NCBI RefSeq assembly: GCF_900110865.1
Contig: NZ_FOFD01000001.1
Location: forward strand, 124,001 to 188,000
Source of the DNA: Natrinema salaciae
Lineage (GTDB): Archaea > Halobacteriota > Halobacteria > Halobacteriales > Natrialbaceae
Length of the DNA: 64,000 nt
Direction: 5' to 3'
In this document: one piece after another, positions 29,874 through 55,294 of the stretch
Numbering within the stretch: the first letter of the stretch is position 1
Layout: each line of letters starts with the position of its first letter
The notes under the pieces: model-generated
The model's database searches: none
Told to the model about the DNA's origin: nothing
What the model saw: only the letters and a program-made list of their open reading frames with translations
Made by a program: the position numbers and the translations under genes

Positions 29874-30701
29874 GTGAGATACGCGGACCTCGTCGTCGCG
29901 ATCCTCGCCGGGATCGTCCAGGGGATCGTCGAATGGCTTCCCGTCTCGAGCCAGGGGAACCTGGCGCTGTTCCTGACGTTCGCGGGGACCGAACCCGACG
30001 CGGCGCTCCAGCTGGCGCTCTTCTTGCAGGTCGGAACGACGCTCTCGGCGGCGACCTACTATCGCGACGACATCGCGACGGCCGTTCGCGCAGTCCCCGG
30101 CTGGCGACCGGACCGTGCGTACGCCGGCGCGAACGCCATCCCGTCGTACGTCGTCGTCGCGTCGCTCGCGACCGGGCTCGTCGGAATCCCGCTGTACGTG
30201 TACGCGGTCGATCTCGCCGGCCGGCTCGCCGGCGGCGTCTTCATCGCGGTCATCGGCGTCCTGCTGGTTCTCACCGGTGCCCTCCAGCTCGTCTCCGAGT
30301 CGGTCTCGATGGGGATCCGCGAGGAGCCGACGCTGCTGGACTCCGTCCTGGTCGGGGCCGTGCAGGGCGTCGCGATCCTGCCGGGAATCTCCCGGTCCGG
30401 CGTCACGACCAGCGCGCTGCTGTTTCGCAGCTACGACCCGCCGGCGGCGTTCCGGCTCTCGTTTCTGCTGTCGATCCCCGCGAGCCTCGGTGCCGCCGCG
30501 CTCACCGTCGCCGGTGCCGGCGGCCTCCCCGGCATCGAACCGGGTCCCGCGGCGGCCGCGCTCGGGATCAGCGCCGTCGTCGGCTACGTCACGATCGACG
30601 CCCTCATGCGGGTGGTCGATCGCGTCCCGTTCTGGGTCGTCTGCTTCGGACTCGGCGGACTCGCCATCGTCGGCGGCGGCGTCGTCTCCGTCGTCGTCTG
30701 A
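29874..30701 (+). CDS. uppP: UppP/BacA-type polyprenyl-diphosphatase
   Basis: A 275-residue membrane protein with about eight helices. The two family motifs are clear: GIVQGIVEWLPVSSQGNLAL near the start and GAVQGVAILPGISRSGVTTS in the middle, which together form the phosphatase site. It removes a phosphate from polyprenyl diphosphate carriers; in archaea this would recycle dolichyl diphosphate after glycan transfer, fitting the glycosylation genes here (inference). The GTG at 29874 is about 30 bases after a TTTAAG box, suggesting a leaderless transcript. Confidence 0.9.
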   Translation: MRYADLVVAILAGIVQGIVEWLPVSSQGNLALFLTFAGTEPDAALQLALFLQVGTTLSAATYYRDDIATAVRAVPGWRPDRAYAGANAIPSYVVVASLATGLVGIPLYVYAVDLAGRLAGGVFIAVIGVLLVLTGALQLVSESVSMGIREEPTLLDSVLVGAVQGVAILPGISRSGVTTSALLFRSYDPPAAFRLSFLLSIPASLGAAALTVAGAGGLPGIEPGPAAAALGISAVVGYVTIDALMRVVDRVPFWVVCFGLGGLAIVGGGVVSVVV

Positions 30702-31877: not shown

Positions 31878-31957
31878 ATACGTAATAATATATACACAAA
31901 CTTAAGACTGGGGTGCAAATAAATTTCGAAATAACGTTTGAGAGCATTGAACGGCTC

Positions 31958-32185
31958 ACGTGCGACTACTGTCACACTCCCGTTGAATGACGGCCGACGC
32001 CCGCGAGACGGTACGGACGTTCTTGGATGACCGACCCGACGGCGAGCGCGCGCTCGAGGCCGCCCTCGCGGTCGACGCGGAACACGAGACGTGGACGCTC
32101 GACGATGTCGCATTGACTCGGGAACGTTCGGTGAGCCCGTCTCGCGCGGCATCGTCGAGGACGTCGATGTGCGTATCGCGTTGTG
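31958..32185 (+). pseudogene. Decayed duplicate of the 5' end of aglB
   Basis: From about 28 bases before its ATG (31987) this segment copies the start of the aglB-like gene at 33880. The first 40 residues are nearly identical (TADARETVRTFLDDRPDGE in both). A small deletion at about 32112 shifts the frame, after which the match continues in another frame (DSGTFGEPVSRGIVEDVD against DSGTFGELVSSGVVEKVD). Similarity ends near 32185. It is a relic of a duplication. Confidence 0.85.
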
Positions 32186-33451: not shown

Positions 33452-33753
33452 CCGTGGACGGCTGTCGTCTCCGGTACGATTGCTCGAAACTGTATTCGGA
33501 AGTGACCACCGAGGACCGCTCGAGAAATCCACCGACAGCTACTCGCCCTACCAAAAACCGTCTACGTGATGTGTGGGTGTCGTGTTCCGAGAGAGTTACG
33601 CTCTCTCGAGGGTGGGTTCTACCCGGTGTCTCCGGTTCGCTGTGGACGCCAGCTGTCTCCGGGTTTCGTTCTGGTTTGCTCGAGTCCGGGGTCTCACCCG
33701 GGCTGCATCGGTGGGACGGACGAGCCGACGTTCGGTGTACTCGAGACCGTTCT
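33452..33753 (-). pseudogene. Decayed duplicate of the 3' end of the coiled-coil gene
   Basis: This stretch is colinear with 37425-37733. Clear matches are CGTTCGGTGTACTCGAG (33729 and 37709), a GTGGAC-plus-AGCTGTCTCCGG block (33642 and 37615), GCTCTCTCGAGGG (about 33599 and 37573) and a CCGTGGAC block (33452 and 37425). On the minus strand it still encodes NGLEYTERRLV, as the intact protein does, then falls apart. Confidence 0.75.
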
Positions 33754-33879: not shown

Positions 33880-36315
33880 ATGACGGCCGACGCCCGCGAG
33901 ACGGTACGGACGTTCCTGGATGACCGACCCGACGGCGAGCACGCGCTCGAGGCCGTCCTCGCGGTCGACGCGGAAGGCGAGACGTGGACGTTCGACGACG
34001 TCGCCCTCGACTCGGGAACGTTCGGCGAACTCGTCTCGAGCGGTGTCGTCGAAAAGGTCGACGGTGAGTATCGAGTCGCGGACCCCGCGGTCGTCGAGGC
34101 GGTGGTGGCGGGCGACGAACTCGCGGTCGAGGAGTCGCCGGACGACCGCGAGCTCTCGCTCGAGAGGCTCCGAGACGCCGTCGATACGCGGGCGCTGACG
34201 GCGCTTCTCGGTGCGTTACTGGTCGTCGCGATCGCCAGGATGACGGCGTACCGATCGGTGTTCCAGGAGGGCTACGTCGTCTCGCCGGGGAACGATCCCT
34301 ACTACTTCCGGTACCGGATGGCGGAACTGCTCGAGGAATCGTCCGGCCCCCTGGACTACGGCGTGCTGGCGGAGCCGCCGGCCGGCTCCTTCCAGACGCG
34401 CCCCCTCGCCCACGCGACGAACTGGTTCGTCGCCGAACTGCTCGGCGGCGGGCAGGGAGCCGCCGACGCGGTCGCGGCGTGGCTCCCGGTGATCGCGTCC
34501 GTCGCGCTCGGACTCGTGATTTACACGCTGACTCTCCTGCTCACGCGCGACGTTCGCGTCGGGATCGCGTCCGTCCTCGTCTTCGCCGTGACGCCGATCC
34601 ACGCGGTCTACACGGGGCTCGGCTTCGTCGATCACCAGCTTCACCAGTACTTCTGGCTCGGGATCACGCTGCTGTCGCTGACGTGGCTCGCCGTCGACCT
34701 CCAGCGCCGACTCGAGCGCGGCGGGAGTCGCCGCGCGATCGTTCGGGACCACCTCCGACGGCCGACGACGTGGCTCGTCGCGCTCGCCTTCGGCCTCTCG
34801 GTCGCGGCCGGTATCCACGCCTGGGGCGGCTCGCCGCTGCTGTTGCTCCCGCTCGCAGCCTACGTCGGGCTGCGAGTCGCGCTGGATACGCGAGCCGGTC
34901 TCTCGCCGGCTCGAGCGAACCTGCCGCTGCTCGCGGGGCTGGTCGTCGGGAGCGGACTCTCGCTCGCCCTGCACCACCGCTGGGGCTGGCACGCGGAGTT
35001 CGTCGCGACCACGCCGGCGCTGGTGCTCGGCGGTGCGATCGCCGTGACCGCGCTCGGCGAACTCTGGCGGCGGACGGACGTCCGCCTGGGCGGGTTGCTC
35101 GCGCTCGAGGGGATCGTGGCGGCCGGCGGCCTCGTCGCGTTTCGGCGGCTGCAGCCCGCGGTGTGGGCCGACGCGATGAGCCGCGTCGACGATCTCTTCT
35201 TCCGCGAGGGCGCGACCGAGACTGCCTCGCTGTTCGCGACGGAGTACGCCGTCATCTTCGGGCCGATGTATCAGCTCGGGATGGGGTTCTACGTCGCGCT
35301 CGCGGTGCTGGCCTGGGTCGTCTGGACCGTCGCCCGCCGGTACGAGCCCGGCTGGTTGCTCGTCGGGACCTACGCGGGATATCTGCTCGTGCTGGCGGGG
35401 ATTCAGGTCCGCTTCGCCGGCCAGCTCGCGATTCCGCTGGCCGTGCTGACCGGGCTCGGCTTCGTGCAGTTGCTCTCGGTGATCGAACTGGCGCGACCGC
35501 CGGTCCCGTTCCGGGATTCCGAGTTGGGAGCCGACGGTGCGCCTCGAGACGGCGCGTCGGTCGCCGCCGACGGCGGGCGGCCCGAGCCGTCGGTGTCGGT
35601 TCCCGACGGCCGGAAGCTCGGCTACCTGGTCGGCGTCGGCCTGCTCGTGTTCGGGCTGAGCCTGATCTACGTGCCCGGCCTGACGGCGAACGTGACCCAC
35701 AGTGAAGCGCAGGTCGAAGCGGTGAGCGCGATCGACGACCACGCGGAGGCGGCGAACCGGACCTACCCCGCGAACTACGTGCTGAGCGACTGGGGCGACA
35801 ACCGGATGTACAACCACTTCGTGAGCGGCGAATCGCAGAGCTACGGGTACGCACAGCGCAACTACGCCGACTTCGTCTCCGACTCGAACCCCGACGGCCG
35901 GTACGACCAGTTCGCCGGCCGCGTCGGGTACGTCGTCGTCACCGAGGCCACGGGCGACGTGCCGACCACGAGCGCGCAGGCCCAGCTGCTCGAGGCGTAC
36001 GGCGCGGGCGGCAACGGGACCGATGGCCTCGCACACTACCGGGCGCTCTCCGTCGACGAGGACGTGGCGGCGTTCGCGGTGGTTCCCGGGGCGACGCTCG
36101 AGGTCAGCGGTGAGCCGGGGGCGAACGTGACCGCCGAGACGGACGTCTCGGTGTCCGGTGAGTCGTTCACCTACGAGCGATCGGCCGCCGTCGATGGGGA
36201 CGGCCGGGCGTCGGTGACGGTCCCCTACGCCGGCGAGTACGCGGTTGGCGACCGGACGGTGAGGGTTACGGAGGGCGACGTGCTGAACGGGAGTTCGGTC
36301 GCGCTCGAGGCGTGA
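33880..36315 (+). CDS. AglB/STT3-like oligosaccharyltransferase with altered motif
   Basis: An 811-residue STT3/AglB-type protein. An N-terminal 95-residue acidic cytoplasmic extension precedes about 13 membrane helices (from about 108 to 620). The first outside loop has the acidic catalytic motif (VVSPGNDPYYFRYRMAELL), and FVDHQLHQYFW resembles the second acidic/His segment. The soluble C-terminal domain has NYVLSDWGDNRMYNHFVSGE where family members carry WWDYG, so the signature is changed to DWGDN. Enzymes of this family move a lipid-linked glycan to Asn in N-x-S/T. A divergent substrate range or a non-catalytic role is possible. The 5' end is duplicated at 31958. Confidence 0.82.
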   Translation: MTADARETVRTFLDDRPDGEHALEAVLAVDAEGETWTFDDVALDSGTFGELVSSGVVEKVDGEYRVADPAVVEAVVAGDELAVEESPDDRELSLERLRDAVDTRALTALLGALLVVAIARMTAYRSVFQEGYVVSPGNDPYYFRYRMAELLEESSGPLDYGVLAEPPAGSFQTRPLAHATNWFVAELLGGGQGAADAVAAWLPVIASVALGLVIYTLTLLLTRDVRVGIASVLVFAVTPIHAVYTGLGFVDHQLHQYFWLGITLLSLTWLAVDLQRRLERGGSRRAIVRDHLRRPTTWLVALAFGLSVAAGIHAWGGSPLLLLPLAAYVGLRVALDTRAGLSPARANLPLLAGLVVGSGLSLALHHRWGWHAEFVATTPALVLGGAIAVTALGELWRRTDVRLGGLLALEGIVAAGGLVAFRRLQPAVWADAMSRVDDLFFREGATETASLFATEYAVIFGPMYQLGMGFYVALAVLAWVVWTVARRYEPGWLLVGTYAGYLLVLAGIQVRFAGQLAIPLAVLTGLGFVQLLSVIELARPPVPFRDSELGADGAPRDGASVAADGGRPEPSVSVPDGRKLGYLVGVGLLVFGLSLIYVPGLTANVTHSEAQVEAVSAIDDHAEAANRTYPANYVLSDWGDNRMYNHFVSGESQSYGYAQRNYADFVSDSNPDGRYDQFAGRVGYVVVTEATGDVPTTSAQAQLLEAYGAGGNGTDGLAHYRALSVDEDVAAFAVVPGATLEVSGEPGANVTAETDVSVSGESFTYERSAAVDGDGRASVTVPYAGEYAVGDRTVRVTEGDVLNGSSVALEA

Positions 36316-36440: not shown

Positions 36441-36908
36441 TCAGTTTCCGAGAAACCTGTTTAGCTCACGGAATTCTTCGGGCGAGAGAATAACCTCGGT
36501 GTCGAACGCATCAAATCGTTCGAAGTCGTCGTCGATCGTCAGAACGGTATTCACCCCTTCGTCAATCGCTACCTGCGCGTAGTACCCGTCCCAGCCACCA
36601 ACGTTTGCGTTCTTCGCCTGAGATAACCCTCCCCGAACGATGGCTTCGGATATTCCGTCGTACCACTGGATTCGCTTCGCGTCCATAAAATTCTGGAGGA
36701 GCCGAGACGCATCCGCGTTTGACCGTCCGTAGTACGTCGTCAAGACGGTATGTGCTCCGAACAGCGCGGGATACGGAACGACGGCAGTTATTTCGCCGGC
36801 GATAGCATCTCGGACGTACGAGAGCGCAGCATCACGAACAGGTGCCTCCGTATGTGCGAGGGCGATCACACCGACATCGAACAGATACGGGCCACCGGCA
36901 TCACTCAT
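36441..36908 (-). CDS. PIN-domain toxin of an AbrB-PIN pair
   Basis: A 155-residue PIN-like protein. Acidic positions are Asp in YLFDVGVIALAH (about 12), Asp in GGWDGYYAQVAIDEG (about 108) and the Asp run in LTIDDDFERFDAF (about 124-126). The first motif is more divergent than in classical VapC. The ATG at 36908 lies inside the end of the AbrB-type antitoxin gene (overlap of eight bases), the tight coupling expected of a toxin-antitoxin operon. The likely activity is RNA cleavage restrained by the partner. Confidence 0.8.
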   Translation of the reverse strand: MSDAGGPYLFDVGVIALAHTEAPVRDAALSYVRDAIAGEITAVVPYPALFGAHTVLTTYYGRSNADASRLLQNFMDAKRIQWYDGISEAIVRGGLSQAKNANVGGWDGYYAQVAIDEGVNTVLTIDDDFERFDAFDTEVILSPEEFRELNRFLGN

Positions 36909-37185
36909 CGCTGTTTTTCTCCGCTCCGCTTCGGACAGCGGCTCTGTGCTTTCGGGCGATCGGGTCGGCGACTTCGTCAAGCGGCATCGTCTCCCCACGC
37001 TCCGGAGCCGTTTCCTCGACGAGCTTCTCCATTCGCTCGAGAATCCGTTCGGGATCGTCTTCGGGCTCGACGACCGCTTTCCCGTCTTCTTCGTGGATCG
37101 CTACTTCCGTCCCGGGAGTGATACCGAGACGTTCTCGAACGTCCTGCGGGAGGACGATTCGCCCTTTGGAATCCACTTTCGCCAT
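36901..37185 (-). CDS. AbrB/SpoVT-type antitoxin
   Basis: A 94-residue protein. Residues 1-45 are a swapped-hairpin AbrB DNA-binding domain (AKVDSKGRIVLPQDVRERLG, then TPGTEVAIHEEDGKAVVEPE). The remaining half is a charged helix (ERILERMEKLVEETAPERGE) that would bind the toxin. It is the first gene of a two-gene operon with the PIN protein at 36441, overlapping it by eight bases. It probably represses its own promoter. Confidence 0.85.
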   Translation of the reverse strand: MAKVDSKGRIVLPQDVRERLGITPGTEVAIHEEDGKAVVEPEDDPERILERMEKLVEETAPERGETMPLDEVADPIARKHRAAVRSGAEKNSDE

Positions 37186-37608
37186 GTTCCCACTTGGTGT
37201 GGGAACGAAATAACCGTTTTGGGTGGCAGCGATGGCAACCGGCTTCGCGAAAACGCGCAGTCACGCTGGATTGGCGATCAGTGCACTCGTCAGGGATCGC
37301 GCAGTCCGAGACTGCACTCGAGTGCAGTGTCGACCGCCGTCAGTCGCTCGTCCGGTATCAACCGGCTCACGGAAGCGTATCGCGTTCACGGGGACGTCTC
37401 GAGCGACGCGTCGGAACAGCGGCACCGTGGACAGCCGTCGTCTTCGGACGCGTTGCGGCGGGCGTCCTCGTCGTGGACTGCCGCGGACTGCTCGAGCGGG
37501 GGACCAGCAGCTACCGACCGTGCGATCGACCGCTCGCGAACCGTCGGTTCGGTGGTGGCGGTGGAGAGTGGGGCTCTCTCGAGGGGACTCGCTCGGCGCC
37601 GTCCGCGG
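37186..37608. other. Intergenic stretch, parent of a duplicated segment
   Basis: About 420 bases without a credible gene. From about 37425 on it is the source or partner of the degraded copy at 33452-33753. Confidence 0.5.
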
Positions 37609-38547
37609 TCAGCCGTGGACGTCAGCTGTCTCCGGAAGCTGGCGGTCGGCGTCGCTCGGTGTCGTCGTCTCGCCCGGGATCTCGGCGTCCGACGGGAGGA
37701 CGAGTCGCCGTTCGGTGTACTCGAGGCCGTTCTTGCGCTGGGTTCGCTTGCGGACCGCCAGCCGGTGTTTGGAGAGGTCGAGGATCGCGTCGATCGTCCG
37801 GGAGACCAGCTTCTTGGCGTAGGTCTCGCTGATGCCCTGTTCCTGGCGACGAATCCAGTGTTTCAGCTCGCTCGCCGCCACGTACTCGTCGACGCCCTTG
37901 CAGCCGCGAGTCCAGGGATCGTCGCCGACGGTCGGGTCGGTTCGCGCCCGCCACAGTTTCGCGGCGAGTCGCGTCGGGAGCGCGTTCGTCGTGGACCGGC
38001 GCATGTCCTCGTCCATCCGGGCGAGTTGCTGGATCGGCAGGAGATCCCCGTGGGCGAGCGCGGTCGTTCCGGACCTGTCCAGCGGATCGTCGTGGTCCGG
38101 GAGGCGGTAGTAGCGCTCCCCATCCGTCTTGGTGACCCGCTCGAGCGCGTCGTCCGCGACGTCGATCTCGTGGACGTCGACGTTCGCCTCGCGGAGGTGC
38201 GCGCCCTTCTCGAGTTCGCGCGCCTGGAGCTCCTCGAGCCGGGCCTTGTTCGCCCCCGTTCGGTTGCGGGTGGCCTCCGCGAGCGCCTCGACGCGCTCGA
38301 GTCGCCGGTCGTTCGTCTCGCGGTCGTCGACGGACCGCTCGACGGTCTCGGTTCGGGACTCGAGCGTTTTAGTGTGGGACTCGAGGGTTTCGACACTGTC
38401 CTCGAGTTCCGCGATCCGATCCGCGAGCCGGTCGTTCTCCGCTCGCAGGCTCCGGAGCTCGTCGAGGAGCGCCTCGAGCAGGTCGCTCTCGAGAGGGTCG
38501 GCGTCCAGGCTCTCGAGCAGTTGCTCCGCGTCGGTGGGGTTACTCAT
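37609..38547 (-). CDS. Coiled-coil protein of unknown function
   Basis: A 312-residue acidic protein. Residues about 10-130 are a long coiled coil (LLEALLDELRSLRAENDRLA, RIAELEDSVETLESHTKTLE and on). A globular part from about 140 includes DDALERVTKTDGERYYRLPD, then AHGDLLPIQQLARMDEDMRR, and a helical C-terminal domain with KLVSRTIDAILDLSKHRLAV and KNGLEYTERRLVLP. I do not recognise the family; the layout suggests a structural or DNA-associated protein of mobile haloarchaeal regions. It is overlapped by eight bases by the gene upstream (38540), so the two form an operon. A degraded copy of its 3' end lies before aglB. Confidence 0.75.
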   Translation of the reverse strand: MSNPTDAEQLLESLDADPLESDLLEALLDELRSLRAENDRLADRIAELEDSVETLESHTKTLESRTETVERSVDDRETNDRRLERVEALAEATRNRTGANKARLEELQARELEKGAHLREANVDVHEIDVADDALERVTKTDGERYYRLPDHDDPLDRSGTTALAHGDLLPIQQLARMDEDMRRSTTNALPTRLAAKLWRARTDPTVGDDPWTRGCKGVDEYVAASELKHWIRRQEQGISETYAKKLVSRTIDAILDLSKHRLAVRKRTQRKNGLEYTERRLVLPSDAEIPGETTTPSDADRQLPETADVHG

Positions 38548-39794: not shown

Positions 39795-41234
39795 ATGAAT
39801 TATAGGAAATTAATTGGGGATGTGGGTTTTTCATCGGCAAGGACTATTTTATCCTTATCTAGGGGAATATTGCTAATACCAATAATAACCAAAATATTTG
39901 GCGCAGATCTTTATGGACTTTGGTCCGGGGTTCAAGCTATAATAATAATTTCAGCAAGTATTGGCGGGCTACACCTTCATGGAGCATTAATTCGTTACCT
40001 TCCACAGGGATCAAAAGATGACGGAATATTCAGTACCGTTCTGACACTTTCTTTTCTTACTGCTATTCTTACTAGTTTGATTCTTATTTGTTTGGGTATC
40101 TTGGGAGTATTACCCGATATAGGTCAATCTAGTTCATGGATAGTCACTGGTTCAATAGCTGGTGTAGTATTCGTAAAGATCGTTTCCTTAGTCATTCTTA
40201 ATTATCCTAGAGCGATCGGGCAAGTGAAAACATACGAAATCATTCAATCGTTTCATCTACTTATTGAATTATTTGCATTAGCAATGGCATTCACACTAAC
40301 AGGCGATATTGTAATAGCTCTACTTTCAGTGATATTTACAACAGTTCTTGTAGACTTGATTGTCGTAATATACTATAGGCCACCGATTAAACCAGATTTG
40401 GATTATAGGAGTATAAAAAAATATCTGGAATACAGTTTACCAATGCTGCCGAAAGAGATGGGAAGTCGAATTATTTCTTCAGCAGATCGGTATCTACTAC
40501 TATTACTTCTGTCACCTGCTTCTGCAGGGATTTATGCTGTAGCATATAGTCTTCCAACTCTCTTAGAAAAATTCACAGGAGTTCTAACGCCAACTCTATA
40601 TCCATCCGTGACGGAAGCATGGGAAAACGGAAATATCAAATCCCTCACCAATTTTTATACGGAAGTATTGCGGTGGTATACAATAGCTGCTTTTCCGATG
40701 TTGGCAGGTATTTCAATTTTGGCCGAGCCAGCACTAAGAATGTTATCAACACCAGCTGTTGCATCCAAAGGTTGGATCTTAGTGCCTCTTCTTGGCATTG
40801 GGTTCATGGGCCGAGGATACGATAATGTACTCATCTATATTCTAACTGCTGCAGAGGAAAACGTGAGAATAGCAAAAATCACAACGTTGGCCGCTTTTTT
40901 AAACACAATATTAAATATAGTTCTAATACCAACTATAGGATTATTTGGGGCAGCAGCTTCGACTATCTTTGCCCAAATTCTTATCGCAAGCTATGTCAGT
41001 TACTGGGCACACAACTATGTCCCCTTTCAGTTCCCAATTATGTCTGCTATTCGGTCTTTTACTGTGACAGCAGTAATGTTATTAGTACTATTCGGATTGT
41101 CAAATACCATATCCTGGAAATCTCAATTAGTGGTCTTTCCGGTTATTGGGTTCTTAATATATGTGGCAGGTCTTAGTCTAGTTGGTGAGATATCTAAACA
41201 AGATATTCAGAAATTTTATTCAGTGGTAGCATAA
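39795..41234 (+). CDS. Wzx-type polysaccharide flippase
   Basis: A 479-residue membrane protein with 12-14 helices, of the MATE/MVF-like polysaccharide exporter superfamily. Starting features are ARTILSLSRGILLIPIITKI and FGADLYGLWSGVQAI; the conserved middle is YSLPMLPKEMGSRIISSADR followed by YLLLLLLSPASAGIYAVAYS. It would flip lipid-linked oligosaccharide across the membrane to the outside, where the polymerase and transferases act. The low GC and ATA-rich codon use point to recent transfer. It is the first gene of the island and reads in the same direction as the AlkP-like gene at 41280. Confidence 0.88.
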   Translation: MNYRKLIGDVGFSSARTILSLSRGILLIPIITKIFGADLYGLWSGVQAIIIISASIGGLHLHGALIRYLPQGSKDDGIFSTVLTLSFLTAILTSLILICLGILGVLPDIGQSSSWIVTGSIAGVVFVKIVSLVILNYPRAIGQVKTYEIIQSFHLLIELFALAMAFTLTGDIVIALLSVIFTTVLVDLIVVIYYRPPIKPDLDYRSIKKYLEYSLPMLPKEMGSRIISSADRYLLLLLLSPASAGIYAVAYSLPTLLEKFTGVLTPTLYPSVTEAWENGNIKSLTNFYTEVLRWYTIAAFPMLAGISILAEPALRMLSTPAVASKGWILVPLLGIGFMGRGYDNVLIYILTAAEENVRIAKITTLAAFLNTILNIVLIPTIGLFGAAASTIFAQILIASYVSYWAHNYVPFQFPIMSAIRSFTVTAVMLLVLFGLSNTISWKSQLVVFPVIGFLIYVAGLSLVGEISKQDIQKFYSVVA

Positions 41235-42781: not shown

Positions 42782-44008
42782 CTATTCATCTATCTCAGAT
42801 GCCGTCGAATACACCTTCTCGATTTTTGGGAGTACTTGATCAGCTTGATATTCATTCGATTTCAATTTTGCATCCTCAGATATTTGATCGAACCTTTTGT
42901 TAGTGATTATATCAGAGATGGCTGAGACAAACCCTTCGACAGTACCATCTGTGATTACACCACCATTCCCTAATATCGATCTTATATCACCATAGTCGCT
43001 CGAAATAATAGGCGTCCCAGTAGCAAGAGCCTCAAGATAAACTCTTGCGAGAGGTTCATCCCAAATACCCGGGTAAATGAACAAGTCATGATTAGCATAA
43101 ATAGTTGGCAATTTTTCATTTGGGACAAACCCCATAAAGTCTACTGAATCTCGAACACTAAGATCATGAGCCTGTTGTTCCATCCTAGTGCGTAGTCCTC
43201 CTTTGCCGACAATTGACAAAGAGACCTTTTCATCAACTTGTTCTTTAAGCTTACTTAGTATCGGAATTAGTTTGTCCACTCCCTTTTGTTTTTCTAGATA
43301 TCCAACATACAATATATTATACGGGCTATTGAAATTGCTCCTGTGTTCCATACGAAACGTTTCATTCAGAGGATGTGGGATGACATGGATTTTATCAGCA
43401 GGAAATCCGAAATCAACATAATTACTTTTAACATGTCCAGAAGGCGACCGGAAGAAATCGATGTGACTAGTGTCAATATTTTTATCTTGTAGGAGTCGAA
43501 GATTCCCAAGACGGCTCACTATCCGATAAGGAGTGCTAAATTCATCATGGTCCGAGCTAGTGAGACTTACACATTTTGAGCAACGGAATAGCGATTTCTG
43601 TGTGCATTTTTCTTCATCCATATAAAGTAAATCATTCTTAGGACAAACTGCACCATAGGCGTTTAGTGTAATTCCAACTGCTGATGATGTCCTTTGTCCG
43701 ATGTAACTCATAGCTGGAATCACAGTAGATAGGTAACAATTTATCACATCATATTTGTCGAATTCTTCAACTCTGCTTTTTAGAGCTCTATTTAGCTTAG
43801 TGTTTGTGTGAGGGGGGAAGTCTGGCAAATATATATATTCAAGTTCAAGACCAGAGGGTTCTTGACGTTCCTTTGGAGGTTTCTCTGTACAGTAGACGGT
43901 AACATTATGACCTCGATTTGACAATCCAGTAACAACCTGAGTGGCTGTATGGGTCGCCCCGGTTCCCTCGTCACCAGGCCAGCTGGGATGAATAAATGCG
44001 ATCTCCAT
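42782..44008 (-). CDS. GT4-family glycosyltransferase
   Basis: A 408-residue retaining glycosyltransferase of the GT-B fold. The N-terminal domain has HPSWPGDEGTGATHTATQVV, a glycine-rich acceptor-side loop. The C-terminal domain starts YNILYVGYLEKQKGVDKLIP and has the E-x7-E-like region DEPLARVYLEALATGTPIIS. A Cys cluster (AVCPKNDLLYMDEEKCTQKS, then RCSKCVSL) may bind a metal, as seen in some GT4 proteins. It lies opposite in strand to its neighbours, so it has its own promoter. The sugar donor and acceptor are unknown. Confidence 0.85.
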   Translation of the reverse strand: MEIAFIHPSWPGDEGTGATHTATQVVTGLSNRGHNVTVYCTEKPPKERQEPSGLELEYIYLPDFPPHTNTKLNRALKSRVEEFDKYDVINCYLSTVIPAMSYIGQRTSSAVGITLNAYGAVCPKNDLLYMDEEKCTQKSLFRCSKCVSLTSSDHDEFSTPYRIVSRLGNLRLLQDKNIDTSHIDFFRSPSGHVKSNYVDFGFPADKIHVIPHPLNETFRMEHRSNFNSPYNILYVGYLEKQKGVDKLIPILSKLKEQVDEKVSLSIVGKGGLRTRMEQQAHDLSVRDSVDFMGFVPNEKLPTIYANHDLFIYPGIWDEPLARVYLEALATGTPIISSDYGDIRSILGNGGVITDGTVEGFVSAISDIITNKRFDQISEDAKLKSNEYQADQVLPKIEKVYSTASEIDE

Positions 44009-44137: not shown

Positions 44138-45079
44138 ATGAATACAGTTGACCGCTTGAAGCGGGCATTTAAGAATCCACAGCTGTTTGCGAGGGGGCTA
44201 AACCGTGCATACTACCGCCGTGGAGGACTTCGATCAGAAAATACTGCTGGAATAGATGTATTTGATCAAGATTGGGATACACTTGTTATTCTTGATGCGT
44301 GCCGGTACGATCTGTTTGAGCAGGTTAATCATATCGAGGGAAAACTCGCCACGAAACACTCTAAGGCATCTGCGACATCTGAATGGCTTCAGGCAAATAT
44401 CGATGGCCGTGACCTGCTCGATACGGTATACGTCACAGCGAATCCCCAACTCGAGCGCAACCGAGAGAGGTGGGATGTGAACTTCCACGAGATCATTAAT
44501 GTTTGGCTTGACCAAGGCTGGGACAAGGAGACCGGAACTGTACTTGCGGACACGATGACCCAAACTGCAATAGAGACATACGATCAATTCCCAAACAAGC
44601 GCCTTGTTGTCCACTACATGCAACCACACTACCCATTCGTTTCAGCCAACACAGACTTCGATAAGAAACATCTGGTGTCTATTGAAGATAGTAACGATTC
44701 TGCTGTTGGCGAAAATATCTGGAATCAAATATTCATTGGAGAACTTGACCTATCTCGAAAAGAATTGTGGGAGCTCTATGCTACAAACCTTGAATACGTA
44801 CTGACTCACGTCAACGATCTTCTGAGCATAGTTCCCGGGAAGACTGTTATCACGTCCGATCATGGGAACTACGTCGGCGAACGGGCATTTCCAATTCCGG
44901 TTCGGGAATACGGCCACCCTCGGGGTCTGTATGGCGATGCTGTAATTCAGGTGCCATGGCTAGAGCACACACGTGGAGAAAGGCGAGAAATTGTGACGGG
45001 AGCAGACAAATCACAGTCACCAGATATTGAATCGGAAACAGTGAAAAACAGATTGCGAAATCTCGGCTACGTAGAGTAA
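44138..45079 (+). CDS. AlkP-superfamily (sulfatase-like) protein, short type B
   Basis: A 313-residue paralogue of the protein at 41280. Shared pieces are WDTLVILDACRYDLF, HYMQPHYPFV, ITSDHGNYVGERAFP and YGHPRGLYGDAVIQVPWLEH. The nucleophile zone is SKASATSEWLQANIDGRD, with Ser/Thr and no sulfatase signature. The ATG at 44138 is about 25 bases after ATATTTAG, giving a leaderless start, and aligns with the paralogue; a GTG seven codons earlier is less likely. The C-terminus is NRLRNLGYVE. Its end overlaps the convergent polymerase gene by 13 bases. Confidence 0.75.
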   Translation: MNTVDRLKRAFKNPQLFARGLNRAYYRRGGLRSENTAGIDVFDQDWDTLVILDACRYDLFEQVNHIEGKLATKHSKASATSEWLQANIDGRDLLDTVYVTANPQLERNRERWDVNFHEIINVWLDQGWDKETGTVLADTMTQTAIETYDQFPNKRLVVHYMQPHYPFVSANTDFDKKHLVSIEDSNDSAVGENIWNQIFIGELDLSRKELWELYATNLEYVLTHVNDLLSIVPGKTVITSDHGNYVGERAFPIPVREYGHPRGLYGDAVIQVPWLEHTRGERREIVTGADKSQSPDIESETVKNRLRNLGYVE

Positions 45080-46290
45080 ATCTCCGGGTCCTCTACCTCC
45101 GTGATTCTATCGATGCAATATCCCATAGAGAGTGCTATAGTAGCGGAATGTAACGATACTCCGATAAAGGTGAGATCATTAAATAGTTGAACGAATAGAA
45201 ATGAAAGAAGTAACATTGGAATTACTATTGAGTCATATCGATCACATTGGCGTATACCGTCAAATATAGTACTAATATATAACAACAGATAGACGAAGCC
45301 TCCGCCGAAGCCAAAGGCAACAAATGCACGGATGAATGAATTATGGATATTACCCGTTTCTGTTGGAGTATATGGTTGAGTTGCATCTACTACGTTACCA
45401 AAGCCGTATCCCCACCAGAGTTTATCTTGAAGGGCATATACACCGGCAATCCACCGCGTTCGTCGGTGATTAAGAGATATTTCCGTCAATGCTTCAGGAC
45501 CAGGCACAACAGAAAAAATCATTAGTAACAGTAAAGATAGCAACGACAACCCCGAAATTGTTGCAGTCATAAGTAGTCTACGCCCCCCAATCCGATAGAC
45601 TACATAGCCACTAAGGGTAACGACAAAGGCAACCCATCCAGTTCGATAATTGGAAAACGCCAACCCGACGACATTAATAGTGAAGAATAGAATTTGCAGT
45701 CGACCTTTGTCTTTCTGTAATTCGGAAAGAGCTGCTATTGATCCAACCAGTGTAAGGAAACCCAGTGCATTCGGATTCACAAAAACACTAGTAATCGGTT
45801 TGAGTGAAGGATACCAGTATATATTTGCACTCCAGAGAGACAGGTCAATGAAAGCAGTCTCGATTCTAAGGCCAAAGTAGGGGAGAAATCCGATACTGAC
45901 TATTACTGCACTTAATCTACTCGCCGCAGCGAGGAAGTACTGCAATGGTATGATTTTTGGTATAACAAAGAGACTTGTTCCAGTAAATATGAGAAACGAG
46001 ACATACCGAACAACTGTTCCACTTGAAAGGTTCAGAATGGTGCTTACCAAAATGAAATCTGATAAAAGGAAAAATAATAGTATGTGCTTTTTATTCACTT
46101 TAATATCCCAACCATGGTGATGAATATATAAGAGTGAGGAGAATGAGTAAACAAGGAAGACAACTACATAAGAAATACCTCTTGATACTGCCGTATGTTG
46201 AAGGATTATCGCAGAAAATAAGAAGAACGGTAGGACCAATGATGCAAATGAGCGGAATGTAATTGTGTTTGTCTGAACCAAAATAGCCAT
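45067..46290 (-). CDS. Wzy/O-antigen-ligase-like membrane protein
   Basis: A 407-residue membrane protein with about ten to twelve helices. A large outside loop between late helices contains PEALTEISLNHRRTRWIAGV and YALQDKLWWGYGFGNVVDAT, then TGNIHNSFIRAFVAFGFGGG, the pattern of O-antigen polymerase/ligase proteins (Wzy_C-like: R/N-H-NSF). It probably polymerises or ligates lipid-linked repeat units outside the membrane. The ATG at 46290 was chosen because upstream in-frame sequence is not hydrophobic and reads through the divergent gene's region. Codon use is AT-rich. Confidence 0.8.
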   Translation of the reverse strand: MAILVQTNTITFRSFASLVLPFFLFSAIILQHTAVSRGISYVVVFLVYSFSSLLYIHHHGWDIKVNKKHILLFFLLSDFILVSTILNLSSGTVVRYVSFLIFTGTSLFVIPKIIPLQYFLAAASRLSAVIVSIGFLPYFGLRIETAFIDLSLWSANIYWYPSLKPITSVFVNPNALGFLTLVGSIAALSELQKDKGRLQILFFTINVVGLAFSNYRTGWVAFVVTLSGYVVYRIGGRRLLMTATISGLSLLSLLLLMIFSVVPGPEALTEISLNHRRTRWIAGVYALQDKLWWGYGFGNVVDATQPYTPTETGNIHNSFIRAFVAFGFGGGFVYLLLYISTIFDGIRQCDRYDSIVIPMLLLSFLFVQLFNDLTFIGVSLHSATIALSMGYCIDRITEVEDPEIYST

Positions 46291-46378
46291 CAATAGTATA
46301 CCTCTAATCTTTGAACAAGAAGTTTGCCATTGTTCGGTAACCAATAAAACCATGACGGAGCAACTCATTTTGTAATCT

Positions 46379-47485
46379 ATGCAGGTACTTGTCTTTCTTA
46401 ATAAAATCAACCATACCTCTATTCCGTTTGAGATATCGACCCGAATCGCGGCTATTACTGACGTTGAAGTATCGGTTCTCTCGTTCTATGATGAAAGTCC
46501 CGAGAAAATTGATCTTGTTGAAAAGGTAGAACATCTCCCGGTTCAAGTTCGCTGTCTCGGCGGAAGATCCAGACTCGATTGTGAGGCCTGGGCCCATTTC
46601 CAGCGCGAAATCATCCAAGATTTCGATTTAGTCCATGTTCACCATAATTTCTCGGGATCAATCGCTAGGATATTAGCGAAACAACAAGGCATACCTGTTA
46701 TTGATACTGAACACCGAGACCACAACTCATTTTCACTACTGCAAAACTTAGTCAATGGTCCAACATTACCACTTGCAGATCGTGTCGTGTCAAATTCACA
46801 AGTGACTGAGGATTCCTTCAAATGGTACGAGCGTCTCCTACTTAATGATAAAGAACTCAAAGTAGTACATAATGGGGTTAACATAGATCGAATTCAAACC
46901 ATTGTAGAGGAAACTCCCCGTTCTGATGACGAGAGTACATTCCGTATCTGTACAGTCGGGCGGATGGTACCAGTCAAAAACCAATCAACACTACTACGTG
47001 CATTCAATTCTGTCGTTGAGCGACACCCATCCACAGAACTCCTCCTTGTTGGAGATGGACCGCTCCGTAAGGATCTAGAATTACTCGCACATGAGCTTGA
47101 AATCGCTGGCAAAGTCCGATTCACTGGAGAAGTTCCACGAGACCGTGTGTATGAACTTTATGCGCAGAGCGATCTCTTTGTGATTTCTTCCTTTGCAGAG
47201 GGTTTCTGTGTTGCTGCTGTTGAAGCAATGGCTGCAGGACTCCCAGTCGTAGTTAGTGATATTCCCATCTTTCATGAAGTGATTAATAAGTGTGGCAGCT
47301 ATGCTGACCCAGAAAAACCAGAACTCTTTGCGGAGAAAATTCAGGAATTACTCAAAAATAAAGACTTGAGACAAGAAAGAAGTTCGATATGTCATGCACG
47401 CGCCCAAAACGAGTTTAGTCTTGAAAAGACAGCAATCGATTATTCAAACATTTATAAAGAGGTGGTGGAAGGTACGACACAATGA
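46379..47485 (+). CDS. GT4-family glycosyltransferase
   Basis: A 368-residue GT-B glycosyltransferase. The acceptor domain has VHVHHNFSGSIARILAKQQG; the donor domain starts TFRICTVGRMVPVKNQSTLL and includes LLVGDGPLRKDLELLAHELE and the E-x7-E motif FAEGFCVAAVEAMAAGLPVV. It probably uses a nucleotide sugar to extend a lipid-linked glycan at the inner membrane face. It is followed by the phosphodiesterase-like gene with a four-base overlap (ATGA), so they form an operon with 47482 and 49086. Confidence 0.88.
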   Translation: MQVLVFLNKINHTSIPFEISTRIAAITDVEVSVLSFYDESPEKIDLVEKVEHLPVQVRCLGGRSRLDCEAWAHFQREIIQDFDLVHVHHNFSGSIARILAKQQGIPVIDTEHRDHNSFSLLQNLVNGPTLPLADRVVSNSQVTEDSFKWYERLLLNDKELKVVHNGVNIDRIQTIVEETPRSDDESTFRICTVGRMVPVKNQSTLLRAFNSVVERHPSTELLLVGDGPLRKDLELLAHELEIAGKVRFTGEVPRDRVYELYAQSDLFVISSFAEGFCVAAVEAMAAGLPVVVSDIPIFHEVINKCGSYADPEKPELFAEKIQELLKNKDLRQERSSICHARAQNEFSLEKTAIDYSNIYKEVVEGTTQ

Positions 47486-49089
47486 CGGAAGTTATCGTTT
47501 TGGGCCTTGACGGTGCTACGTGGGAGGTTCTTATGCCATTTATTGAAGATGGTCTCCTCCCAAATATTGGCAACATAATAACAACTGGTCGTTCCGGAAA
47601 ATTGGAAAGTACATTTCCACCGATTACAGCACCTGCATGGTTGTCAATGGCAACTGGACAGAACCCAGGAAAGACAGGTGTCTTTTACTTCCTTAACCGA
47701 GACGATCCTAACTCATTTGACTTCGAGCCTCTCGGATCAGACAAATTCTATGGAAAAAGCTTCTGGGATGTGCTGTCTGCCCGCGATCAATCTGTCGGTG
47801 TTTTCAATTATCCGATGCTGTACCCACCCTACGATATTGACGGGTTCATGGTAAGCGGACTCGGGTCGGATGCTGACGATACTATCACGTACCCGGAACC
47901 ACTCGGCATGGAACTCGACAAGGTTACCGACGGGTATCAAGTGAAAGTCTCATACGCTGATCCGAAGTATCAGGGCCGTCCCGATGCCCTCAAACAGGAT
48001 CTCCTCGAGATTATTGAAAAGCGAGAGCAGGCGATCGATTATCTGTTGAGCGAAAAGAATCCGGACCACTTCTTTGGGATTATCAGCGCAACCGACTGGG
48101 CTCAACACTACTTCTGGCGATATCACGACGAGGAACATGCCTTGTATGACCCGGAGGCAGGTCACGAAGATGCGCTACAGCAGATTTGGGAACGGGTAGA
48201 CGAGACAGTCGGACTCGTTACCGAGCATGCTCGAGGAGAGGATGCGAATCTCCTCCTCGTCTCCGATCACGGATTCGGTCCTGTAAATCGGACCTTCCAC
48301 TCTAATGAGTGGCTCAAGCAACAGGGCTTCTCGTATGCGGAAGAGCAGTCTTTGATCAATCAAACCCGAACGAAATATTTCCCATACCTTCGTCGGGTTG
48401 GGGAAGCGGTCGTCAGGTTTGCTCCCCAGCTGAACGACATCGGAAAATCCATCGGTGAGTCGATCCGCAGTTCGCCGGGAGATGGAATCGATTTTGATCG
48501 AAGTATTGCGTTCGCCCCGAGACAGAATATTACATGTGGGATGATCTATATGCTCACCGATGATCCCGACGATAAACGGGCTGTAATCGACGAATTGGAT
48601 AAACTCGTCGATCGAAACGATGGCCCGGAAAGTATCGAAGTATACGAACCTGAAGATCTATATCATGGACCGAAATTAGATTTGGCACCCGATCTTCTGT
48701 TCGAAATCAACGGATTCGAGTGTGCTGTTGATCCCAGACCGACGGCTGAGAACAACGTTTTCTCCGATGGGTCGCCGTCGAAAGCACGGAACGGAGGACA
48801 TAATCAGGAAGGCATTCTAATCGCGACAGGGCCGGATATTGGGACCGATGATGCAGCCATAGAGGCCGACATTTACGATATCGCACCGACATTATTGTAT
48901 CTACACGACACCTCGATTCCCCAGGAAATGGATGGAAGCGTTCTCGGGGGGCTCTTTGAAGATGAGATAGTGGATGATCAGTTGATATCGACTGATTCGT
49001 TAGAAAATCTTGTTTCCATAGGAAAATCCTCGAAGCGGAAAGACGATCAAGAGGTACAAGAGCGACTCAAAGACCTTGGATATATATGA
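47482..49089 (+). CDS. AlkP-superfamily type I phosphodiesterase-like protein
   Basis: A 535-residue protein of the nucleotide pyrophosphatase/phosphodiesterase branch. The first metal Asp and nucleophile Thr lie in VIVLGLDGATWEVLMPFIED and FPPITAPAWLSMATGQNPG. Later metal ligands are SATDWAQHYFWRYHD, LLVSDHGFGPVNRTFH and RNGGHNQEGILIATGP. In this branch a Thr attacks phosphodiesters. The C-terminus is QERLKDLGYI. It overlaps the genes on both sides by four bases. It has no signal peptide, so it is predicted cytoplasmic, like others of its type in archaeal glycan clusters. The substrate may be a nucleotide sugar or phospho-glycan. Confidence 0.85.
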   Translation: MTEVIVLGLDGATWEVLMPFIEDGLLPNIGNIITTGRSGKLESTFPPITAPAWLSMATGQNPGKTGVFYFLNRDDPNSFDFEPLGSDKFYGKSFWDVLSARDQSVGVFNYPMLYPPYDIDGFMVSGLGSDADDTITYPEPLGMELDKVTDGYQVKVSYADPKYQGRPDALKQDLLEIIEKREQAIDYLLSEKNPDHFFGIISATDWAQHYFWRYHDEEHALYDPEAGHEDALQQIWERVDETVGLVTEHARGEDANLLLVSDHGFGPVNRTFHSNEWLKQQGFSYAEEQSLINQTRTKYFPYLRRVGEAVVRFAPQLNDIGKSIGESIRSSPGDGIDFDRSIAFAPRQNITCGMIYMLTDDPDDKRAVIDELDKLVDRNDGPESIEVYEPEDLYHGPKLDLAPDLLFEINGFECAVDPRPTAENNVFSDGSPSKARNGGHNQEGILIATGPDIGTDDAAIEADIYDIAPTLLYLHDTSIPQEMDGSVLGGLFEDEIVDDQLISTDSLENLVSIGKSSKRKDDQEVQERLKDLGYI

Positions 49090-50552
49090 CAAGTCCGAAC
49101 GTAGTTGTAATTGTCCTCGACACTGCAAGAGCAGACGTGATTGCGTCGGGCATTCACAATGGTTTTCTATCAAACATTGATTCGATTCGAAAGGAAGGGG
49201 CGATATTCGAACAGTGTACTTCTGCAGCGCCGTGGACGCTCCCCTCACACGGTTCGCTCTTTACCGGGATGGCATCCTCGAAACACGGAGCACATGCCGA
49301 TCACAAAGAGTTGAATAATACGCAGACAACGATTGCGGAGGTTTTCCAAGCCGACGGCTATGACACAGTAGCCGTCTCGAACAACACTTGGATCAGCGAG
49401 GAGTTCGGCTTCGGGCGGGGCTTCGAGGAGTTCCGAAAGACGTGGCAGTACGTCCAGTCTGACATCGACCTCGGTCGGATTGCACGGACTGAGGAGGGGA
49501 TGGACAAGCTCAAATCACTTGGTCGGGAACTGTTCGCGGGGAATCCTATAGTCAACGTCACAAATGCTATCTACGGGCAGTTCGTCCGAAACCACTACGA
49601 CGACGGTGCAAAACAGACGAACGAGTGGATCAGAAGTTGGCTCACTGAACGGACTACCACCGATCCGTTCTTCTTGTTCGTAAATTACCTCGAGCCTCAC
49701 CTCGAGTATCGACCGCCGAACGAATTCGCAGAACGGTTTCTCCCCTCGGGTATCTCGTACGAGGAAGCGATGGACGTTCCGCAGGACGCGTGGGGGTACA
49801 TCGCTGGAACGGTTGAGATGTCCGATCGCGATCTGGAGGTTCTACGAGGGTTGTATCGGGCAGAAATTGCCTATCTCGATCAGCAGATTGGAGAACTCAG
49901 GGAACTCTTGGAAGAGCAGAACGAGTGGGAAGACACGATCTTCGTCGTCACAGGCGATCACGGCGAGAACATCGGCGATCACGGCCTGATGGACCACCAG
50001 TACTGTCTCTACGATACGCTCCTTCACGTCCCGCTCTTCGTTCACGGCGGGCCGTTCACCGGTGGCCAGGAAATCGACGACCTCGTCCAGCTGACCGATA
50101 TCGCACCGACGCTCCTCGATGCGGCCGGTATCGATGCGCCGGCGTTCCGCGAGCAAGCGCAGGGCCGATCCTTCCACCCGGATGCCGACACGGAGCCCCG
50201 CGAGTACGCCTTCGCCGAGTACATGGCACCGCAGCCGTCGATGGACGCCCTCGAGAAACGCGTCGGTGAACTCCCCGAGGAGGTGCGCAAATACGACCGT
50301 TCGCTGCGGTCGATTCGATCGACGGAGTGGAAGTACATCCGCGGGTCGGACGGCTCCGAGGAGTTGTATCACGTCGCCGAAGATCCGGGCGAAACCGAGA
50401 ATCTCGTCGACGCGGAGCCGGAGAAAGCGGCCGAACTCGAGTCGGAACTCGACGCCTGGCTCCGGTCGTTCGACCACGCTGATACCGGCGGTGACGTCTC
50501 GATGCGCGATGAGACGAAAGCTAGACTCGAGGATCTCGGCTATCTGCAGTAG
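49086..50552 (+). CDS. Sulfatase-family protein without formylglycine signature
   Basis: A 488-residue sulfatase-fold protein. The start VVVIVLDTARADVIASG carries the first metal Asp pair; the nucleophile zone is APWTLPSHGSLFTGMASSKH, where Thr replaces the Cys/Ser of CxPxR, so no formylglycine can form. Later ligands are VVTGDHGENIGDHGLMDHQY, and LYDTLLHVPLFVHG is typical of the family. A phosphotransferase or phosphodiesterase role is more likely than sulfate hydrolysis. The C-terminus is ARLEDLGYLQ. GC rises along the gene from low to native level, marking the island's right edge. It overlaps the convergent glycosyltransferase gene by 13 bases. Confidence 0.85.
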   Translation: MTSPNVVVIVLDTARADVIASGIHNGFLSNIDSIRKEGAIFEQCTSAAPWTLPSHGSLFTGMASSKHGAHADHKELNNTQTTIAEVFQADGYDTVAVSNNTWISEEFGFGRGFEEFRKTWQYVQSDIDLGRIARTEEGMDKLKSLGRELFAGNPIVNVTNAIYGQFVRNHYDDGAKQTNEWIRSWLTERTTTDPFFLFVNYLEPHLEYRPPNEFAERFLPSGISYEEAMDVPQDAWGYIAGTVEMSDRDLEVLRGLYRAEIAYLDQQIGELRELLEEQNEWEDTIFVVTGDHGENIGDHGLMDHQYCLYDTLLHVPLFVHGGPFTGGQEIDDLVQLTDIAPTLLDAAGIDAPAFREQAQGRSFHPDADTEPREYAFAEYMAPQPSMDALEKRVGELPEEVRKYDRSLRSIRSTEWKYIRGSDGSEELYHVAEDPGETENLVDAEPEKAAELESELDAWLRSFDHADTGGDVSMRDETKARLEDLGYLQ

Positions 50553-51637
50553 GCGATCGATCGGAGCCGATCGGTCGTCCGCTCGACGGTCGTTTGCCAC
50601 GTGTAGTCGTCCTCGAGCGGGTCGACGTCGCGGTCGGCGGCGAGCCAGTCGGAGACGTGTCGCGCGATCGACTCTCCGCCGTCCATATCGACCAGCGTCC
50701 CGCGGCCGGCGACGATTTCGTCCAGCTGATCGAGGTGGGAGCAGACGGCCGGAATGCCGGAGCTGATCGCCTCGAGCACCGTTCGCGGCACACCTTCCGC
50801 CCGGCTCGGTAACACGAGGACGTCGCTGCTCCGGTAGACGGCCGGCATCTCGTCGTACGAGAGGTGGCCGAGGAAGTGGACCGACTCGGAGAAACCTACT
50901 TCGGCGGCACGGTGCTCGAGTTCGTCGCGTAGCGGTCCTTCCCCACACAGATAGAGTTGCGCTGTCGGATGGTCCTGCCGAACCCCGTGGAGAGCGTCGA
51001 TTGCGGCAGCCGGACGTTTGCCGTCTACCAGGCGGCCCACGTACAGGACGACGGGGCCGTCGGTATCGATCAGCTCGCTTGTCGGTCCATCCGGGACGAA
51101 TCGTTGCGTGTCGATCCCGTTCGAGACCACCGCGATCCGACTCGAGACGCCGAACTCCTGGACCCGCCGTTTGTCCGTCTCGGTGTAGCAGAACACGACG
51201 TCGGCTTGGTTGAACGTCCACCGACCGACGGACCGGAGATACAGATCGAAGACCCATTCGGGGGCGTTCTGGGAGTAGAGCCCGTGGTTCGTGATCGCGA
51301 GCGGAATGTCTCCCAGGAACCGTTTCAGGGCGGCCAGGTTCGTCGAGAAGTACAGGTGTGAGTGGGCGTGGAGCACGTCGAACGCCTCGGCGTCCGAGAG
51401 GTACTGCGCCAGTCCCGGACTGATGTCGTTCCCGAGCACGCTCACCGCGGGATCGTACCGGACCACGGTGTATCCGTCGCGCTCCTCGACGTGGGGCAAG
51501 TCGGAATCCGTCCGTACCGTCAGCACGGTCACGTCGTGCCCCATCGCTGCCTGATCGCGACTCATCGCGTGGACGTGGTACGGTCCACCCCCTTTCACGT
51601 CGGGATAGACCTTCTGTGCGACGCGTAGAATCCGCAT
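50540..51637 (-). CDS. GT4-family glycosyltransferase
   Basis: A 365-residue GT-B glycosyltransferase of native high GC. The N-terminal glycine loop reads VYPDVKGGGPYHVHAMSRDQ; the acceptor part has FDVLHAHSHLYFSTNLAALK and ITNHGLYSQNAP. The donor part begins GPVVLYVGRLVDGKRPAAAI and has SRAEGVPRTVLEAISSGIPA as the E-x7-E-like motif. It likely acts in the same surface-glycan pathway as its neighbours. It is convergent with the sulfatase-family gene and separated from the sugar transferase at 51690 by 52 bases, a possible operon. Confidence 0.88.
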   Translation of the reverse strand: MRILRVAQKVYPDVKGGGPYHVHAMSRDQAAMGHDVTVLTVRTDSDLPHVEERDGYTVVRYDPAVSVLGNDISPGLAQYLSDAEAFDVLHAHSHLYFSTNLAALKRFLGDIPLAITNHGLYSQNAPEWVFDLYLRSVGRWTFNQADVVFCYTETDKRRVQEFGVSSRIAVVSNGIDTQRFVPDGPTSELIDTDGPVVLYVGRLVDGKRPAAAIDALHGVRQDHPTAQLYLCGEGPLRDELEHRAAEVGFSESVHFLGHLSYDEMPAVYRSSDVLVLPSRAEGVPRTVLEAISSGIPAVCSHLDQLDEIVAGRGTLVDMDGGESIARHVSDWLAADRDVDPLEDDYTWQTTVERTTDRLRSIAYCR

Positions 51638-53138: not shown

Positions 53139-53329
53139 CGACTAATGGAGTAACCTGCACTCCCATATATGCTTTGAAACGACTAACACGCCGACATACC
53201 ACTATATATCGATTGTGGCCGATTCGGCTCCGAACGCTCGCTGCCCGGAGATGTACCGAACTCGATACGATCGGCGAACCGCGACGAAATACGCACGGTT
53301 TTTGTAGCCGTCGTGGGACCGTCGTAACG

Positions 53330-55152: not shown

Positions 55153-55294
55153 TACTGCTACCATGATGAGTCCCCTCATATGGCTTTTCTGGCCCGGGGG
55201 AAGTCGGCCCCGACGCGGAACCGAACGGTCGGCCGAGAGCGGCGTGACCGGTGACCGCAAGGATAATCTGCGCGGATCGCGCCTGATTCGGATA

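Follow-up and report, generated by a model that had tools for sequence, protein, structure and literature searches.

An AglB paralog with a replaced WWDYG motif in Natrinema salaciae and its possible role in sequon-independent glycosylation of the S-layer N-terminus

Can an oligosaccharyltransferase (OST) work without the motif that helps it to read its acceptor site, and on which acceptor would it then act? This question is raised by a gene at positions 33880–36315 of a 64,000-nucleotide stretch of the Natrinema salaciae genome (contig NZ_FOFD01000001.1, positions 124,001 to 188,000), which is designated as the window. The gene encodes a paralog of AglB, the haloarchaeal OST of the STT3 type. 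The original prediction for this gene held that the protein has an OST-type fold, that DWGDN replaces WWDYG, and that it may recognize another acceptor or be a paralog with a different job. Here we describe the family to which this protein belongs and propose that it is probably a second haloarchaeal OST, which would N-glycosylate an N-terminal Asn of the S-layer glycoprotein without a sequon. We infer this function from the fold, from sequence conservation, from gene co-occurrence and from statistics on the acceptor, and the catalytic activity, glycan donor and acceptor identity given below should be read in the same way.

A separate family with the AglB/STT3 fold

The gene and its functional sites are as follows.
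33880–36315, plus strand: AglB/STT3 paralog without WWDYG, 811 residues, ATG start (intact open reading frame, domain searches, alignment and model)
33880–34107, plus strand: N-terminal winged-helix domain, residues 1–76, common to a haloarchaeal EMC3/Oxa1-like protein (model and profile match)
34294–34296, plus strand: codon of D139 in NDPY, acidic residue of the first external loop (invariant in 62/62 relatives)
34630–34635, plus strand: codons of D251-H252, second external loop ([DE]-H in 62/62)
35218–35220, plus strand: codon of E447, the likeliest counterpart of the TIXE glutamate (invariant in 62/62, assignment approximate)
35410–35412, plus strand: codon of R511 in QVRF, common to canonical AglB (R511-F512 in 62/62)
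35785–35817, plus strand: SDWGDNRMYNH in place of WWDYG, residues 636–646 (family alignment)
36088–36240, plus strand: AglB_L1 peripheral domain (PF18079), residues 737–787 (Pfam)

The fold of the paralog is that of AglB/STT3, because domain, structure and profile comparisons converge on it. The AglB_L1 domain is matched with 38.9 bits against a Pfam cut-off of 23.6. The AlphaFold2 model, built from 27 aligned family members (mean pLDDT 81.8), has Archaeoglobus fulgidus AglB (7e9s) as its top match among solved structures, with a Z score of 31.8 over 647 residues at approximately 17% identity, and STT3 proteins come next. Profile–profile comparison with 25 canonical AglBs aligned 417 columns of the membrane domain (E = 1.1e-18). 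The GT-C membrane domain and the AglB-type C-terminal domain are both present (Pfam, model, fold match and profile), and the OST-type fold that had been predicted, with the acidic loop GNDPYYF at residues 137–143, is borne out. Among known proteins, A. fulgidus AglB-L (7e9s, 3waj, 5gmy) is thus the closest in structure, but it is remote in sequence and retains the WWDYG that is replaced in the paralog. Haloarchaeal AglB (TIGR04154, PF02516, CAZy GT66; e.g., Haloferax volcanii AglB) shares with the paralog the GT-C membrane domain, the C-terminal globular domain with AglB_L1, the acidic residues of the external loops and QVRF. In contrast, the paralog has no WWDYG, scores 128.2 bits against TIGR04154 (curated NCBIfam cut-off, 450 bits), carries an extra winged-helix N-terminus, has other gene neighbors, occurs in about half of Halobacteria and coexists with AglB. 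Most members of the paralog family also score under the cut-off of PF02516.

A separate canonical AglB with SWWDYGHLI is encoded in the same genome on contig 8. Among 125 genomes of the family Natrialbaceae, 68 carry the paralog (our list holds 69, one of them with a 35-residue match only) and canonical AglB was detected in 116; among the carriers of the family, only G067 and G035, an incomplete genome, showed no separate canonical AglB. Class-wide, 216 of the 391 sampled Halobacteria are carriers, while the phylum sample outside Halobacteria yielded a single weak partial match. The paralogs are monophyletic, and the branch that leads to their clade (support 0.99) is long. The separate clade and the separate canonical AglB rule out an ordinary variant of canonical AglB, and the status of a paralog, which had been offered as one of two possibilities, is established. 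Homologs were also found in six haloarchaeal records of a plasmid collection, labeled 'STT3 domain-containing protein', 'hypothetical protein' or 'LamG-like'. We found no prior report of the family in the literature searched, subscription papers being outside its reach.

Several loci deserve separate mention. G067 is a complete genome with the paralog, no canonical AglB above the threshold and an S-layer protein starting with KQPASATN; it could serve as a natural test of paralog-only glycosylation. Three copies (L035, L047 and L082; genomes G080 and G081) are broken by stop codons, which suggests turnover of paralog loci. In the window, a truncated copy of the start of the paralog gene with about 38 bp of upstream sequence lies at 31949–32181 (87% DNA identity), 1.7 kb before the intact gene, and reads as a remnant of duplication or recombination. 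A pair of repeats (33591–33753 and 37564–37733, 69% identical) lies on either side of the paralog gene.

The WWDYG position, the catalytic residues and the N-terminal extension

When 61 relatives were aligned with the AglB of the same genome, the WWDYG position was occupied by SDWGDNRMYNHF (residues 636–647), VMS-WWDYG-H of canonical AglB corresponding to VLS-DWGDN-R of the paralog; no WWDYG was found elsewhere in the 811 residues. W-W-D-Y-G-H is invariant in all 25 canonical AglBs of the same family of organisms. In the paralog family, V634, S636 and N645 are invariant (62/62 relatives), and R642 and G650 (61/62) and W638 and N641 (60/62) are nearly so; chance is therefore excluded as the origin of the altered motif. 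Relative to WWDYG, the first Trp position accepts any residue, the second Trp is retained in 60/62 members, 53/62 have Gly for Asp, 60/62 have Asn for Gly, and 61/62 have Arg for the His that comes next. Halobacterium paralogs read VFSxWxxNR[LV]YN, and the signature of the whole family is V-[LF]-S-x-W-x-x-N-R-x-Y-N. The original prediction thus located the replacement correctly and the altered form is family-wide, but the conserved unit is SxWxxNRxYN and not DWGDN.

The catalytic residues are kept in these 62 relatives. The acidic metal-binding and catalytic positions of external loops 1, 2 and 5 (D139, [DE]251-H252 and E447) are present in 62/62, the assignment of E447 being approximate. In canonical enzymes, WWDYG and the DK/MI motif jointly form the Ser/Thr-binding site for the sequon (PMC8342417). 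No DK-like segment was evident after the GYVVVTE strand of the paralog, a region in which the alignment is gapped. With WWDYG, a part of the Ser/Thr pocket, replaced, the paralog is, judged from its sequence, an enzyme that would keep OST chemistry and lack the known sequon reader.

The N-terminal extension of about 95 residues that had been noted is real, since the structural alignment with 7e9s begins at model residue 98, and its nature can now be specified. Residues 1–76 modeled alone form a winged helix (pLDDT 84.6) with Z scores of up to 7.8 to the winged-helix domains of Cdc6/Orc1; it resembles many DNA-binding folds at Z scores of 6–8, which is uninformative on its ligand. In Halobacterium, the neighbor of adk encodes an Oxa1-like insertase of the EMC3/TMCO1 family, 290 residues long, which starts with a homologous winged helix (hhalign probability 97%, E = 5e-11) and is otherwise unrelated to the paralog. 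Haloarchaeal insertases of this kind with the homologous domain are encoded at L128:1498–2370, L126 and L130. STT3 proteins have a cytoplasmic N-terminus, so the winged helix should face the ribosome side. Our guess is that it couples the paralog to translocation, which would fit an acceptor at the extreme N-terminus of a secreted protein.

Co-occurring glycan genes and the S-layer N-terminus

Two further genes of the window bear on donor and acceptor.
51690–53138, minus strand: lipid-phosphate sugar-1-phosphate transferase (PGT; PF02397), co-occurring with the paralog (Pfam family and co-occurrence)
12608–15073, plus strand: S-layer glycoprotein, proposed acceptor, with predicted mature N-terminus KNPTAANYDSG and a PGF C-terminus
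12722–12724, plus strand: codon of the predicted acceptor Asn, mature residue 2 (cleavage after AAA inferred)

A close homolog of the PGT is present in 64/68 carriers and in 3/57 non-carriers (p = 1e-26, relatedness ignored); within the genus Natrinema, the corresponding numbers are 21/21 and 0/8. In 39 of the 69 loci examined, no more than about 9 kb separates the PGT gene from the paralog gene. In Halobacterium, the PGT, glutamine-fructose-6-phosphate aminotransferase (GlmS) and sugar nucleotidyltransferases adjoin the paralog, and this set of genes suggests that the first sugar would be an N-acetylhexosamine (HexNAc) on a pyrophosphate-linked carrier.

S-layer genes were sought with the N-terminus of the Halobacterium salinarum S-layer gene product, csg, and the S-layer family TIGR04216, and mature N-termini were read with a signal-peptide hidden Markov model. 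Uniform placement would put an S-layer gene within 25 kb of the paralog in 1.3 of the 69 genomes; the observed number is 20 (relatedness uncorrected). In our sample of 13 Halobacterium genomes, which does not include H. salinarum (best csg identity 78%), full-length paralogs are confined to the genomes that have a csg-type S-layer gene (4/5, against 0/8 of the rest), and csg is within 20 kb of the paralog in three of these four.

The mature N-termini differ between carriers (e.g., ANAD, VNER, YNVG, QNDY, TNHD, SNHG, AHNDG and KNPT) and non-carriers (e.g., DDDP, AEDE, QDRD, ERGD, AHDDG and EQPT). In counts that exclude a few genes with an unplaced signal end, including the GADVQRGG-type S-layers of one carrier family, Asn is at mature position 2 in 29/77 S-layer genes of carriers and 2/56 of non-carriers, and within the first four residues in 52/68 carrier and 12/56 non-carrier genomes (p = 1e-9). 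The association holds when stratified by genus (Cochran–Mantel–Haenszel p = 5.7e-7, odds ratio 16), and none of 20,000 within-genus permutations reached the observed value (p < 5e-5). The same permutation test gave no effect of Asn at the control positions 5–7 and 8–10 (p = 0.66 and 0.62). Matched pairs illustrate the difference: AHNDG in carrier G117 versus AHDDG in non-carrier G113, and KNPTAANYDSG in the window genome versus EQPTAANYDSG in G075. Only 10 of the 60 N-terminal Asn residues of carriers are in an N-X-S/T context, and some are in N-P-T. These data lend indirect support to the earlier suggestion of a different acceptor.

The alternative that survives best, although we consider it unlikely, is that the paralog is a polysaccharide ligase or transferase, which would pass a PGT-initiated surface polysaccharide to a lipid, another glycan or a different surface protein, the link to Asn being a by-product of shared ecology. 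The neighborhood in the window is indeed a Wzx/Wzy-like cluster, to which the PGT also belongs (a phosphatase gene on the other side of the paralog gene is listed first):
29874–30701, plus strand: BacA/UppP polyprenyl-pyrophosphate phosphatase (carrier recycling)
39795–41234, plus strand: Wzx-like flippase (PF13440)
42782–44008, minus strand: glycosyltransferase family 4 (GT4) protein
45067–46410, minus strand: Wzy_C/O-antigen ligase-type polymerase (PF04932)
46379–47485, plus strand: GT4 glycosyltransferase
49086–50552, plus strand: sulfatase-family protein
50540–51637, minus strand: GT4 glycosyltransferase
53174–54316, plus strand: NAD-dependent sugar epimerase/dehydratase
54409–55311, minus strand: sugar nucleotidyltransferase
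55049–56578, plus strand: UDP-glucose/GDP-mannose dehydrogenase

By eye, the segment between the paralog gene and this cluster (36441–37185) resembles a pair of VapC-type PIN toxin and AbrB-type antitoxin. Enzymes with GT-C folds act on a variety of acceptors (ArnT, Emb and Pmt are among the structural matches), and the S-layers of some carriers have no N-terminal Asn, which would suit such a ligase. However, the paralog retains the AglB-type C-terminal domain with AglB_L1, the enrichment of Asn is restricted to mature positions 2–4 and holds within genera with null control positions in the same proteins, and S-layer genes are found near the paralog gene. An ordinary N-X-S/T-directed OST that has diverged only at WWDYG and has its substrates in common with AglB would account for the AglB-like fold and catalytic residues, and the altered motif, being the norm of the family, indicates that the family is stable; we regard this alternative as improbable. 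Least probable of all is a catalytically inactive scaffold or regulator of glycosylation, as the altered acceptor motif and several broken copies (L035, L082) might indicate, since the metal and catalytic acidic positions are invariant (62/62) across distant genera and the co-occurrence with the PGT is tight.

Several points weigh against a second OST acting on the S-layer N-terminus. About a quarter of the carriers with a read S-layer N-terminus (e.g., G010, G017 and G119) lack Asn at mature positions 1–4, and the GADVQRGG-type S-layers, which are outside the counts, are likewise without an N-terminal Asn; other acceptors must therefore exist in such carriers. Conversely, 12 non-carriers have an N-terminal Asn too, and the second S-layer gene of the window genome (C1:888972–891410, L300), which is 78% identical to the gene at 12608–15073, encodes a mature N-terminus that reads KDPT, with Asp and not Asn. 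Cleavage was placed by prediction, at the A-A-A that ends the signal. The association with the PGT shows that a pathway is shared and does not bear on how the transfer proceeds chemically. In the profile alignment with canonical AglBs, the TIXE glutamate is one position off, and H. salinarum is stated to have a single aglB (PMC4335974).

Relation to the Asn-2 glycan of Halobacterium salinarum

The S-layer glycoprotein of H. salinarum carries at Asn-2 a repeating-unit glycan that is linked through GalNAc and assembled on dolichyl pyrophosphate (PMC2952790). This glycosylation survives replacement of Ser-4 by Val, Leu or Asn, for which the same review, noting only one transferase gene, sees no suitable explanation (PMC2952790); the independence from the +2 Ser has been on record since 1998 (Zeitler et al. 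1998, as cited in PMC2952790). A 2019 paper does not decide whether AglB handles the glycan at Asn-2 (PMC6591318). Given its predicted pyrophosphate-linked donor pathway, its linkage to csg and its lack of a sequon reader, the paralog family is a strong candidate for the missing Asn-2 transferase. The proposed enzyme would resemble that transferase in acting on an N-terminal S-layer Asn for which the +2 Ser is dispensable, in its dolichyl-pyrophosphate donor and, from the GlmS, nucleotidyltransferase and PGT genes beside it, in a HexNAc linkage, a likeness drawn from Halobacterium genomes other than that of H. salinarum, which is outside our data.

The transferase of the second (Agl15) pathway of Haloferax is likewise without an assigned gene (PMC8241124). 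This pathway is also an AglB-independent N-glycosylation, and the paralog was considered for it and rejected. The family was not found in three Haloferax-like genomes (G238, G267 and G322; g46), and their S-layers begin with ERGDLDADN; the paralog is thus probably not the enzyme of this pathway.

A second OST of the proposed kind could work as follows. The co-occurring PGT would start the glycan on a dolichyl-pyrophosphate carrier, and signal peptidase would cut the S-layer glycoprotein, exposing a new N-terminus with Asn at about residue 2. The paralog would then move the lipid-linked glycan onto this Asn without needing Ser/Thr at +2; the SxWxxNRxYN segment and the N-terminal position may together substitute for the sequon as the recognition signal. 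More speculatively, the cytoplasmic EMC3/Oxa1-like winged helix might keep the enzyme near the translocon, where it would meet the N-terminus just after cleavage. Carried further, this leads to a tentative idea, which we think has somewhat less than an even chance of being right, that the paralog reads position and not sequence: docked at the translocon by its EMC3-type winged helix, it might accept Asn with no Ser/Thr and even with Pro at +1, as in NPT. To our knowledge, Pro at this position is excluded by known N-glycosylation.

With a defined gene family, the puzzle of the Asn-2 glycan becomes testable. If the proposed function is correct, a transferase that is not bound by the N-X-S/T rule would show how the active site of an OST can be rewired, and it would be of interest to glycoprotein engineers.
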